In this document: positions 4,065 to 57,852 of the stretch, one piece after another
Position numbering within the stretch: the first letter of the stretch is position 1
Layout of the letters: the number at the start of each line of letters is the position of its first letter
Origin: Thermodesulfatator indicus DSM 15286
GTDB taxonomy: Bacteria; Desulfobacterota; Thermodesulfobacteria; Thermodesulfobacteriales; Thermodesulfatatoraceae
Assembly (NCBI RefSeq): GCF_000217795.1
Contig: NC_015681.1
Coordinates: forward strand, 983,244 to 1,047,243
Direction of reading: 5' to 3'
DNA: 64,000 nucleotides
Translations under genes and position numbers: made by a program
Notes under the pieces: generated by a model
What the model was told of the DNA's origin: nothing
Database searches by the model: none
The model's input: the letters and a program-made list of their open reading frames with translations, nothing else

Positions 4065-4076
4065 TTTGCCTGTCCC
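4065..4076 (-). repeat. Dispersed GGGACAGGCAAA motif
   Basis: On the minus strand this reads GGGACAGGCAAA, in the gap between the permease and miaB. It is the outermost left copy of a motif clustered around the RAYT gene at 10.2-11.1 kb. Confidence 0.6.
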
Positions 4077-8912: not shown

Positions 8913-8947
8913 TTTGCCTGTCCCCGTTTTTTGATTTTGCCTGTCCC
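8913..8947 (-). repeat. Two direct copies of the GGGACAGGCAAA motif
   Basis: TTTGCCTGTCCCC (8913-8925) and TTTGCCTGTCCC (8936-8947) lie head to tail in the 253-base gap between the helicase gene and tyrA. Nothing else was recognised in the gap apart from a degraded 'cgctagcgacaaagtcgct' stretch at ~8842-8862. Confidence 0.65.
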
Positions 8948-10248: not shown

Positions 10249-11106
10249 TCAGATAATAGCCATATCGGCTAATTTTTCTATTATTTTGATTTTTTTCTCT
10301 CGTTTTAGTCCAAGAAATTTTTTCAACTCAGCTGCTGTTTCTTTAACAAAACCCTTGCTCCCTATGGCCAAGCTTTCGGTAAAATACCTGGTCCTCTGCC
10401 TAAAAGTTTCGCCTGTCCCTCTATCTGGCTCACCAAGCCCGCCCTTACCATAAACAAACTCTCGTAAAAGTTCTAATTTCTCTTTCTCGCTTTTGCCTTC
10501 ATACCGCTGAAGGCCGAGGTCAAGCGACAGAAAAGTCTTGCCTGTCCCTCTTCTTGCTCTGTATCCCAGCGAACACCAGCGGTAGTCCTCCGGCTTTTCT
10601 ACAATTCCTGCCCGCACCGGGTTAAGTTCAATGTAAGCCAAGCAGTTGAGTAGAGCCTCCCCGGTTTCAATGATTACGGACTTAAACCTGTCAGCCCAGA
10701 AGTACCCTTTGCGGTCAACGCGTTTGTTATACCAGCGTGAAAAGCGCTGCTTGATGTCCTGGACGTATCGGGAAAGATTTCCAAGCCTTTTTCGCCATTT
10801 TTTGAGCATATCTTCGTAGAAGAAAATTTTGCGTTTCTCGCCGTAGTAGAGCTTGATGCGGCGTTTCAATTCTTCGTCAGAGAATTGCTCTTCAGGGAGC
10901 ATGCGGCAGAGGAAATGGAAGTGGTTGCCCATAATGGCAAAGCCATAAACTTCGACGAAATAGACCTGCGAGAGCCAGCTTATAAGATGGAGTAAGTGTT
11001 CTTTTTCTTCGTCGCCGAGGACATCGTGGCCGGGCAAGGCCGTGCGGGAGATTACATGATAAGCGGCTTGTGGATCATTCATAAAAAAACGAGGGATACG
11101 TGGCAT
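10249..11106 (-). CDS. REP-associated tyrosine transposase (RAYT, Y1/IS200-like)
   Basis: 285 residues. HUH motif HFHFL at 62-66 after AIMGN, a candidate catalytic tyrosine in FSRWYNKRV (Y126), and the RAYT-typical block AYIELNPVRAGIVEKPEDYRWCSLGY (written in parts: AYIELNPVRAG, EDYRWCSLGY). These enzymes nick single-stranded DNA at REP palindromes and are usually single-copy domesticated transposases. Oddly, RGTGKTF (186-192) and DRGTGETF (228-235) are in-frame translations of the dispersed GGGACAGGCAAA motif at 10540-10548 and 10411-10419. They resemble a P-loop but are not in a P-loop context. A further copy sits in the 5' leader (11129-11140). A 7-bp hairpin CTAAACA/TGTTTAG (10227-10247) abuts the stop codon. 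Confidence 0.88.
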   Translation of the reverse strand: MPRIPRFFMNDPQAAYHVISRTALPGHDVLGDEEKEHLLHLISWLSQVYFVEVYGFAIMGNHFHFLCRMLPEEQFSDEELKRRIKLYYGEKRKIFFYEDMLKKWRKRLGNLSRYVQDIKQRFSRWYNKRVDRKGYFWADRFKSVIIETGEALLNCLAYIELNPVRAGIVEKPEDYRWCSLGYRARRGTGKTFLSLDLGLQRYEGKSEKEKLELLREFVYGKGGLGEPDRGTGETFRQRTRYFTESLAIGSKGFVKETAAELKKFLGLKREKKIKIIEKLADMAII

Positions 11107-11128: not shown

Positions 11129-11140
11129 TTTGCCTGTCCC
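11129..11140 (-). repeat. GGGACAGGCAAA motif in the RAYT leader
   Basis: TTTGCCTGTCCC on the plus strand, 23 bases upstream of the RAYT start codon and oriented the same way as the gene. It may be a substrate or regulatory site for the transposase; this is inference from position. Confidence 0.6.
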
Positions 11141-11314: not shown

Positions 11315-12862
11315 ATGGAAATTATGAACAGTAGAGAAGTAGAAGAGCTAAGCTGCCTTTACGAAATTGCTAAAACGCTTTCAAGTTCGCTAAACGTCCG
11401 CGAAGCTTTGCAGGATATTCTCGCCATTTTGGCGGAAAAACTAGACATGCGCCGTGGAACTATCACCATATTTAACCCTCGCACACGAGAAATCCAGATA
11501 GAGGTAGCCCATGGTTTATCAGAAGAAGCGCGTAAAAGAGGCCGCTACCGTCTAGGAGAAGGTATAACTGGCCAGGTAGTAGCTACGGGCCAGCCCATTG
11601 TAGTGCCAGCCATCTCTGAAGACCCGCGCTTTTTAAACCGTACACGCAGCCGTAAAGAGGCTGAAAAAGACAAAATTTCTTTCATCTGTGTCCCCATAAA
11701 AACGGGCACCAAAGTTTTGGGAACTCTTTCTGTAGATCGGGTTTTTACCAACGATATTTCTCTCGAAGAAGACGTCCGCTTTTTAACCATCATTGCCGGC
11801 CTTATTGCTCAGACTGTGGCTAATATCCAGGCAATTCAAGAAGAAAAAGAGAGATTACTTGAAGAAAACTTGAAGCTTAAGCAGGAGCTGAAGGGTAAGT
11901 ATCGGCTTGAAAATTTTGTTTGTTCAAGCTCTCGCATGCAGGAAGTACTCCAGATGATGGAGCGAGTAGCCCCTAGTTCGGCCACAGTTCTTATCCGCGG
12001 AGAATCGGGGACAGGCAAATCCCTCATCGCCAAGATGATTCACTTTAACAGCCCTCGGGCTAGTGGGCCTTTTGTGACTATATCCTGCACCGCCCTTCCT
12101 GAAAACCTTATTGAATCTGAGCTTTTTGGCTACGAAAAAGGCGCCTTTACCGGAGCCCTTGGCCGCAAAACCGGGCTTTTTGAAAAGGCAAACGGTGGAA
12201 CTATCTTCCTTGACGAAATCGGCGATCTGCCGCTTCCTCTTCAGGCCAAGCTTCTTCATGTGATTCAGGAAAAGGAATTTTATCGGGTAGGAGGTACTCA
12301 TCCGGTTAAAGTAGATGTGCGTATCATCGCGGCTACCAATCGCAACCTTGAAGAGCTGGTAGAGCAAGGGCTTTTCCGCGAAGACCTGTATTACCGTTTA
12401 AATGTGTTTCCTTTATATTTGCCACCCCTTCGCGAAAGAAAGACGGACATTATCCCTCTAGCTGAATTTTTCCTGGAAAAATATAGCCGTTTATACAATA
12501 AAAAAATTAAGCGTCTTTCCTCGCCAGCTATAGACCTGTTAGTCCAATATCACTGGCCAGGGAATGTGCGCGAACTTGAAAACGTTATTGAGCGCGCCGT
12601 ACTCATTTGCGATGAAGAAGTTATTCGGAGCTATCATCTGCCCCAGAGCTTGCAAACAGCAGAAAGCTCTCACACGCATGCTAAAAAAAGCTTGGCTCAG
12701 GCTGTAAAAGAGGTAGAAGTGGAATTGATAATAGAAGCCTTAAAAGAAACAAAAGGCAATCAGAGTAAAGCGGCCAAACTTCTTGATACCAGCCTTAGAA
12801 TCTTGAATTACAAAATTAAGAAATACGGAATTGATCCAAAGGCCTTCCGTTCCAGAGTATAA
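11315..12862 (+). CDS. Sigma-54-dependent transcriptional activator with GAF sensor domain
   Basis: 515 residues. A GAF domain occupies about 15-175, followed by a coiled-coil linker. The AAA+ domain (~195-430) has Walker A GESGTGKS (~228-235), the sigma-54 contact loop GAFTGA (~276-281), Walker B GGTIFLDEIGDL and the arginine-finger region. A Fis-type helix-turn-helix is at the end (QSKAAKLLDTSLRILNYKIKKYG). NifA/FhlA-like in layout. The ligand of the GAF domain and the target promoters are unknown. The stop lies one base before the likely pcnB start. Confidence 0.93.
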   Translation: MEIMNSREVEELSCLYEIAKTLSSSLNVREALQDILAILAEKLDMRRGTITIFNPRTREIQIEVAHGLSEEARKRGRYRLGEGITGQVVATGQPIVVPAISEDPRFLNRTRSRKEAEKDKISFICVPIKTGTKVLGTLSVDRVFTNDISLEEDVRFLTIIAGLIAQTVANIQAIQEEKERLLEENLKLKQELKGKYRLENFVCSSSRMQEVLQMMERVAPSSATVLIRGESGTGKSLIAKMIHFNSPRASGPFVTISCTALPENLIESELFGYEKGAFTGALGRKTGLFEKANGGTIFLDEIGDLPLPLQAKLLHVIQEKEFYRVGGTHPVKVDVRIIAATNRNLEELVEQGLFREDLYYRLNVFPLYLPPLRERKTDIIPLAEFFLEKYSRLYNKKIKRLSSPAIDLLVQYHWPGNVRELENVIERAVLICDEEVIRSYHLPQSLQTAESSHTHAKKSLAQAVKEVEVELIIEALKETKGNQSKAAKLLDTSLRILNYKIKKYGIDPKAFRSRV

Positions 12863-15100: not shown

Positions 15101-15182
15101 GGGGACAGGCAAAAAATTTCTGATAACGATAACGGGGATAACGGGGACAGGCAAAATCAAAATTAAAAATTTGCCTGTCCCC
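15101..15182. repeat. Three GGGGACAGGCAAA copies in direct and inverted arrangement
   Basis: GGGGACAGGCAAA at 15101-15113 and 15143-15155 on the plus strand, and its exact complement TTTGCCTGTCCCC at 15170-15182. The last two form a perfect 13-base inverted repeat with a 14-base loop. The group fills the gap between two divergently transcribed genes and is the best candidate for a REP-like palindromic unit here. Confidence 0.7.
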
Positions 15183-15995: not shown

Positions 15996-16007
15996 GGGAC
16001 AGGCAAA
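15996..16007 (+). repeat. Dispersed GGGACAGGCAAA motif
   Basis: Exact 12-base copy located 4 bases after the MBL-fold gene stop and 44 bases before pyrR. Confidence 0.6.
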
Positions 16008-26732: not shown

Positions 26733-26744
26733 GGGACAGGCAAA
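26733..26744 (+). repeat. Dispersed GGGACAGGCAAA motif
   Basis: Exact copy in the 136-base gap between divergent aroB and lysE; the rightmost copy I can find in the window. Confidence 0.6.
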
Positions 26745-57105: not shown

Positions 57106-57852
57106 ATGGAAAGAAATGACTTTTTAAAAGACAACTTGAAAAGGCTTGAAGAGCTATCACGAAAGCTCGAGCTTCGCTTTAAAAATGAAGCCCTTTTTTT
57201 GCAGGCCCTAACCCACCGGTCTTTTGTTGGCGACCATCCAGACTGGCCTTACGGAGATAACGAACGACTTGAATTTTTGGGAGATGCGGTTCTTGACGCC
57301 ATTATTAGCCATCTTTTGTATAATCGTTTTGGCCGGGAATATCGCGAGGGAGAACTGTCCAAGATGCGAGCTTGGTTAGTAAATGAAGAGCGTCTGGCAC
57401 GCATTGCTCAAAAGCTTGAACTGGATAAGCTAATTTTGTTGGGGACAGGCGAAGAAAAAGGAAGAGGTCGCCAAAAACCTTCTATTCTGGCGGCAACCTT
57501 TGAGGCTTTGGTAGCAGCGGTGTATCTGGACCATGGTTACGACAAGGTGTTTCAAATAGTTAAAAAGCTTTTCTCCCGCGTTATATCCCAGGCGGAGAAG
57601 GGGCTTTTAGCGGACCATAAAACTTTATTACAGGAATTTACCCAGGCCTTGTTCAAAAAAACCCCAAAATATATCTTGGTAAAAGAAACAGGGCCGGAAC
57701 ACGCCAAAAAATTCTTTGTAGAAGTAAAGATTGGAGATGAAACTTTAGCCAGTGGCAAAGGGTCTTCCAAAAAAGCTGCTGAACAAGCAGCGGCCAAAAA
57801 AGCTTTGAAAATACTGGAGGAAAAATATGGAAAATTCACAGGCAAAAAATGA
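57106..57852 (+). CDS. rnc: Ribonuclease III
   Basis: 248 residues. The catalytic signature NERLEFLGDAVLDAIIS (acidic residues in ERLEFLGDAVLD) and EALVAAVYLDHGY are present, with a C-terminal dsRNA-binding domain (TLLQEFTQALFKKTPKY ... GSSKKAAEQAAAKKAL). Cleaves dsRNA in rRNA and mRNA processing. Overlaps era by 26 bases, a conserved pairing. Confidence 0.96.
   Translation: MERNDFLKDNLKRLEELSRKLELRFKNEALFLQALTHRSFVGDHPDWPYGDNERLEFLGDAVLDAIISHLLYNRFGREYREGELSKMRAWLVNEERLARIAQKLELDKLILLGTGEEKGRGRQKPSILAATFEALVAAVYLDHGYDKVFQIVKKLFSRVISQAEKGLLADHKTLLQEFTQALFKKTPKYILVKETGPEHAKKFFVEVKIGDETLASGKGSSKKAAEQAAAKKALKILEEKYGKFTGKK

Follow-up and report, generated by a model that had tools for sequence, protein, structure and literature searches.

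A Putative Transposase End Signal Recurs within RAYT Genes and Ordinary Genes of Thermodesulfatator indicus

The TIRYTs (TIRtrons) described by Di Nocera et al. (2013) carry terminal inverted repeats (TIRs) with the consensus GGGGWSAS, and some of these TIRs form repeat families (PMC3733652). Quentin et al. (2018) assigned the TIRYTs mostly to TnpA_Y1 subclass 2.1, which probably equals TIRYTs, and found no REPs for subclasses 2.1 and 2.3 (PMC6006769). Subclass 2.3 was reported without flanking repeats and with the motifs NHYH and YVDLNP, and the tnpA_REP genes of subclass 2.4 contain in-frame insertions of hairpin REPs between HuH and Y (PMC6006769). Given this precedent from subclass 2.4, the bare observation of a cognate repeat within a transposase gene is already known in kind. 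What is new for the locus described here is the mode of origin of the motif (apparently in place) and its genome-wide reach. Two further systems are comparable. Rickettsia palindromic elements (RPEs) are longer palindromes that are inserted into protein genes and read in frame. The USS/DUS uptake sequences are short motifs of coding and intergenic DNA that are formed by point changes and often lie in convergent pairs.

The window (the whole stretch of 64,000 nucleotides that was analyzed) encodes a RAYT/TnpA_REP-like HUH-Y1 transposase of 285 amino acids on the minus strand at 10249-11106, which is matched by Pfam Y1_Tnp with an E value of 1.2e-9. The HUH motif is NHFH (residues 61-64) and the catalytic tyrosine is Y158 within YIELNP. 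Both are present in an alignment of 36 sequences, where the Y, L, and N of YIELNP are invariant. The AlphaFold2 model has a pLDDT of 87, and its best match in the PDB is 4er8, a TnpA_REP bound to a REP hairpin. The protein is thus a member of the RAYT/TnpA_REP (HUH-Y1) family by its HUH motif, Tyr-NP, and Y1 fold; the NCBIfam model REP_Tyr_transpos gives 64.7 bits (E 8e-18), below the cut-off of 80. The genome of T. indicus contains 17 full-length copies of this gene, 73-100% identical, whereas RAYTs are usually single genes, each with its own cognate repeat family. In all 17 copies the reading frame is open from end to end, 16 of them being 73-90% identical to the window copy, which is unusual for a decaying insertion sequence. 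The copies share homology from the outer leader GGGACAGGC to about the stop codon, where it fades. The motif usually occurs near -80, near -34, at +558 (most copies), and at +687 (many copies). Purifying selection at the protein level is likely to act on these genes. GT[AG]G REP hairpins were not found at the RAYT flanks, and a hairpin structure for the motif was rejected since the predicted folding of five sequences from leaders and single sites does not exceed that of most of their shuffles (z -1.5 to 1.2).

Two exact 21-mers of the form AGAGGGACAGGC(A/G)A(G/A)ACTTTT are located on the coding strand of the RAYT gene at 10402-10422 and 10531-10551 (minus strand), both in frame 0, as the first-pass annotation had claimed; the span that it gave begins at 10407, inside the second site. 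With AGAGGGACAGGCRARACTTTT as the search pattern and up to three mismatches, four matches are found in the window, compared with 0.02 expected from shuffles. Site 1 (10531-10551, minus strand; AGAGGGACAGGCAAGACTTTT, core 10540-10548) encodes RGTGKTF at codons 186-192, in a coil after helix 179-186 of the AlphaFold2 model, and its core is exact in 25 of the 26 distinct RAYT copies. Site 2 (10402-10422, minus strand; AGAGGGACAGGCGAAACTTTT, core 10411-10419) encodes RGTGETF at codons 229-235, in a linker that is modeled with low confidence. It is missing from part of the RAYT copies, in which the linker reads, for example, LTKTKEF. The further copy that had been noted in the leader was found at 11132-11140 (minus strand), -34 from the ATG and directly 5' of the ribosome-binding site AAGGAGG. 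The outer leader motif, usual at about -80, is decayed in the window copy.

In the window there are 13 copies of the core GGGACAGGC, where 0.37 would be expected, and the T. indicus genome of 2,322,224 bp has 262, 125 forward and 137 reverse, whereas the reversed pattern used as a control occurs 5 times (1 forward and 4 reverse). One copy at 12008-12016 (plus strand) lies in a gene for a sigma-54 activator, within the codons of its Walker A motif (GESGTGKS), and is exact in T. indicus only, among the species compared. Another at 57442-57450 (plus strand) lies in frame 0 of an ordinary ORF as LLGTGEEKG; the relative in G005, a genome of the same genus, reads LLGEGEKRT with no gap. Between genes, a group of three spans 15102-15181 (15102 and 15144 on the plus strand, 15173 on the minus strand), and T. 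autotrophicus retains the equivalent of 15173 only. A direct pair occupies 8916-8947 (minus strand; 8916 and 8939). Single intergenic motifs lie at 15996-16004 (plus strand), exact in T. autotrophicus as well, and, as matches to the core, at 4068-4076 (minus strand) and 26733-26741 (plus strand).

The motif was then compared with the surroundings of 82 distinct RAYT loci outside the Thermodesulfatator clade (40-58% identity), an incomplete sample gathered by a pattern-based scan and a phylum search. Within 250 nt upstream of these genes GGGACAGGC was found 49 times, always on the gene strand (49/49), at a density of 2.5 per kb versus 0.10 per kb in the far flanks. The extended upstream consensus is GGGACAGGCNNNTTATGCTTGAC. 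Downstream, 10 of the 12 motifs are inverted, and at the family level the gene is enclosed by terminal inverted repeats of the GGGGWSAS type. Within the genes themselves, 72.8 kb at the 82 loci, the motif does not occur. GGGACAGGC is, as judged from these positions, the predicted end signal of this transposase lineage. The motif inside the gene, that of the leader, and those between genes are one element, and since the element within the gene is the predicted end signal of the transposase's own lineage, recognition of the in-gene motif by the RAYT itself is plausible. Both terminal repeats are not preserved at the window RAYT: the inner leader motif is kept, the outer one is decayed, and no exact inverted motif is found within 250 nt of the stop codon. 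In the leaders of distant RAYTs (L144, L149, L168, and others) the motif is followed, at constant spacing, by a TTGAC-like element; it could be a -35 box that is overlapped by the end signal.

The comparison with RAYT relatives that the first-pass annotation had proposed shows that RGTGxTF is neither ancestral nor conserved. None of the 82 more distant relatives has it; their sequence at site 1 is xQTGNxDxF, and at site 2 they have a linker whose length varies. More fully, site 1 of these relatives reads GYHxQTGNxDxFLSxDFG, with likewise nine residues between GY and FL. The sister lineage (G008 and G004) has GYHLGTGN, one residue from QTGN, and T. indicus and T. autotrophicus have GYRARRGTGKT, a shift by two codons with the length unchanged; the length at site 1 agrees with that in more than 60 relatives. 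The site 2 linker varies widely in length among relatives. In the sister lineage the motif is found at +265, +552, and +673, the first and last of these in frame 1, where they encode GDR. Because the motif recurs at shifted positions and in shifted frames, it is the nucleotides that recur and not one peptide. A partial RAYT (L050) has three motif copies. Since none of the 82 distant relatives has the motif in the gene, the in-gene copies are derived within the Thermodesulfatator clade.

The 26 distinct RAYT copies contain 39 GTG tripeptides, every one of them spelled GGGACAGGC. Of 98 conserved degenerate columns, only 3 show no synonymous change, namely the codons GGG, ACA, and GGC of site 1, and the motif is present at the first GTG in 25 copies, compared with about 1 in synonymous shuffles (maximum 6 in 2000 runs). 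The motif-bearing copies are related, and the invariance therefore counts for fewer than 26 independent events. These patterns argue strongly that the core is kept exact at the DNA level in the RAYT genes.

Ordinary genes show the same preference. In the sampled genome of T. indicus (864 kb in stretches, genes called by a crude longest-ORF method), the non-RAYT ORFs (712 kb) contain 37 motifs versus 4.2 expected from within-gene synonymous shuffles, and the ordinary ORFs of T. autotrophicus contain 19 versus 2.1, an excess of about 9 times in both motif-rich species. No excess is found in relatives without this RAYT: 3 versus 4.7 in G005 (same genus) and 5 versus 5.8 in G010 (same order). The peptide GTG[KE] is spelled as the motif in 21/34 cases in T. 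indicus and 7/15 in T. autotrophicus, compared with 0/11 in G005 and 0/7 in G010. The motifs of ordinary genes are found in several frames, antisense included. Sites with a homologous stretch in a relative differ from it by 0 gaps and 0-5 substitutions, some of them non-synonymous; some of these comparisons (AAA+ proteins, 47-56% identity) are with paralogs rather than orthologs. For example, SGGSGKFRG in G005 is SGGTGKFRG in T. indicus, and EKGTAKST of a relative is EKGTGKST. The Walker A site at 12008 of the window belongs to this set. The comparable sites are gap-free, and the motif in ordinary genes therefore arises in place. In one ordinary ORF (L076:13429 and 13465) a lysine-rich linker (KGTGKKKIGKKKKGTGEIA) contains the motif twice in frame, at a spacing of 36 nt, possibly a true in-frame duplication.

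The abundance of the motif follows the presence of the RAYT. T. indicus has 262 copies and 17 RAYT matches, T. autotrophicus 246 and 17, G004 81 and 8 (several partial), and G008 28 and 1. Genomes of the same genus or family without a RAYT match have 8-29 copies, near background; one of these, G006, has 29, as many as G008, and the low end of the relation is therefore weak. When 395 genomes of the phylum are ranked by their number of GGGACAGGCRAA, the top six (207, 193, 45, 24, 16, and 14) are all among the 23 that contain a RAYT of this lineage.

The copies also lie close to RAYT genes. In T. indicus the density of non-RAYT motifs is 2.7 per 10 kb up to a distance of 10 kb from a RAYT, about four times the value beyond (about 0.7), and 1 of 1000 circular shifts reached the observed density; for coding motifs the densities are 1.29 and 0.34 and for intergenic motifs 18.8 and 2.9. 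In T. autotrophicus the density is 2.2 near a RAYT and 0.8 beyond. Within 2 kb of a RAYT, 13 of 16 motifs are on the opposite strand, as expected of right-end repeats. No convincing replication-strand bias of the motif was found. Three inverted motifs lie within 350 nt in two neighboring genes just downstream of a RAYT copy (L078:1386, 1443, and 1730), and T. autotrophicus differs by 1-3 bases at each.

Other repeats were observed beside the motif. Short tandem duplications abut it in the 5' flank: an 8-mer is repeated upstream at 4/55 motifs versus 21/2686 control GGG sites, with instances at L106:1503, L106:1635, L075:5630-5660, window 15125-15152, and site 2 of L039. Small in-frame duplications adjoin in-gene motif copies. 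A second, unrelated REP-like family of the TCACTGCGAG...GAAGCAGTCTC type is abundant in both species (L253:11050-11450, L078:7340-7800, and L106:1580-1640), and a few GGGACAGGC matches are chance parts of it. Five nearly identical longer elements with GGGACAGGCTGTTGAGTCATGG (L071:2157, L077:8589, L082:17424, L083:16144, and L100:12477) are probably an unrelated insertion sequence.

The best reading of these results, held with about even confidence, is the RAYT-associated spread in place of a TIRYT-type terminal repeat. The sequence GGGACAGGC(R)AA would be the core of a terminal repeat recognized by a RAYT/TIRYT-type HUH transposase. In Thermodesulfatator this repeat would have multiplied, and many copies, including those in the RAYT gene, would have formed in place, a near-matching stretch being turned into the exact motif by substitutions at unchanged length. 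Once formed, the core would stay exact at the nucleotide level. We infer that the RAYT recognizes the motif and causes its spread, possibly by nicking it in single-stranded DNA during replication; the nick could then start strand transfer or a short templated conversion onto nearby near-matches. The products may persist in the RAYT gene because both sites fall in flexible linkers that come after the catalytic domain. More tentatively, and at less than an even chance, the HUH transposase itself overwrites near-matching DNA in place, a templated conversion drive that acts mainly near its own copies and edits codons of ordinary proteins as well as its own, with no insertion. Against spread in place, the clustering would also be seen if RAYT genes prefer motif-rich places for insertion. 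Such insertion could contribute: at the place of an inverted motif pair in T. indicus, T. autotrophicus has a RAYT (L114). After control for composition nothing points directly to a pool of near-matches having been consumed: a depletion of one-mismatch near-matches, considered as such a pool, vanishes against permuted motifs of equal composition and was rejected.

For the RAYT gene itself the main rival is a serious one, in our estimate rather unlikely. The in-gene copies would be binding sites made by point mutations, whose nucleotides selection holds exact, and would serve as autorepression operators together with the two leader motifs or as subterminal sites of mobilization. The core nucleotides do not vary among the RAYT copies although the flanks do, which suits such sites. 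In-gene motifs are always on the sense strand, two lineages use the same two linkers, partly in different frames, and the TTGAC-like element adjoins the leader motif in distant relatives. Selected sites leave unexplained why ordinary genes share this excess, in several frames and antisense. Most of the 82 relatives have the same leader motif and none has it in the gene; site 2 is missing from many intact RAYT copies, and one intact copy lacks both sites.

It is improbable that the motif is a host chromosomal or USS/DUS-like DNA-uptake signal that accumulates by biased recombination and is merely used by the RAYT. The origin by substitution in place, the presence on both strands in coding and intergenic DNA, and the convergent pairs do resemble uptake sequences. 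However, abundance follows RAYT presence, and the copies are concentrated around RAYT genes. In distant genomes, where it is not abundant in this way, the RAYT leader and end signal is again this 9-mer.

Still less probable is the insertion of mobile repeats in frame as tolerated linker peptides, in the manner of Rickettsia RPEs or subclass 2.4 REPs, for which precedents exist (PMC6006769, PMC3733652). Small in-frame duplications next to the motif in L039, L059, and L067 would suit it. Site 1, however, has the ancestral length, which contradicts insertion there, the motifs of the sister lineage lie at shifted positions, and no gaps occur in any ordinary-gene comparison, where an RPE would appear as an in-frame insertion absent from orthologs. 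Most RAYT copies that lack site 2 have one additional codon rather than fewer codons. The part of the first-pass annotation that read the repeats as inserted linker peptides is thus not upheld, whereas the identity of the in-gene copies with the leader and intergenic motif, the predicted end signal of the lineage, stands. Coincidence or an ancestral conserved peptide is very improbable: the TG of site 1 overlaps the ancestral QTGN, F follows at both sites in the ancestor, and GTGK is natural in Walker A genes, but codon invariance and the synonymous shuffles contradict it, site 1 is shifted by two codons, and the motif is absent from relatives.

The present system resembles TIRYTs in that its HUH-Y1 transposase has terminal inverted repeats where others have GTAG hairpins, and GGGGWSAS fits GGGGACAG. 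It differs in that the 9-mer is conserved across distant genomes, is present in about 260 copies with 17 copies of the gene, and is written into the transposase gene and ordinary genes. As in subclass 2.4, cognate repeats lie inside their own transposase gene with the reading frame kept; here there is no hairpin, site 1 is length-neutral, and both sites of the window RAYT are C-terminal of Y158 rather than between HuH and Y, where only the sister-lineage site at +265 is found. The length of about 300 residues, the extra HuH-Y segment, the C-terminal extension, and several diverged intragenomic copies recall subclass 2.3 as described; the window RAYT differs by NHFH/YIELNP and by its end signal. 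RPEs are likewise short repeats read in frame, whereas here substitutions create a short non-palindromic motif. Unlike USS/DUS, abundance and position follow a transposase gene with the same motif at its ends. In open full texts the 9-mer gave only unrelated sequence matches, among the matches listed.

These findings bear on the unsolved question of how RAYTs multiply REP- and TIR-type repeats. The signal of this system is a non-palindromic 9-mer, present in about 250 copies in each of two related species and not in near relatives. Sites in conserved genes allow the ancestral state to be inferred, so that insertion can be distinguished from conversion in place. A conserved end signal is supplied for a RAYT lineage that resembles subclasses for which no REP has been found. 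If the RAYT causes the substitutions, it would be a transposable element that alters host proteins codon by codon, with no insertion.
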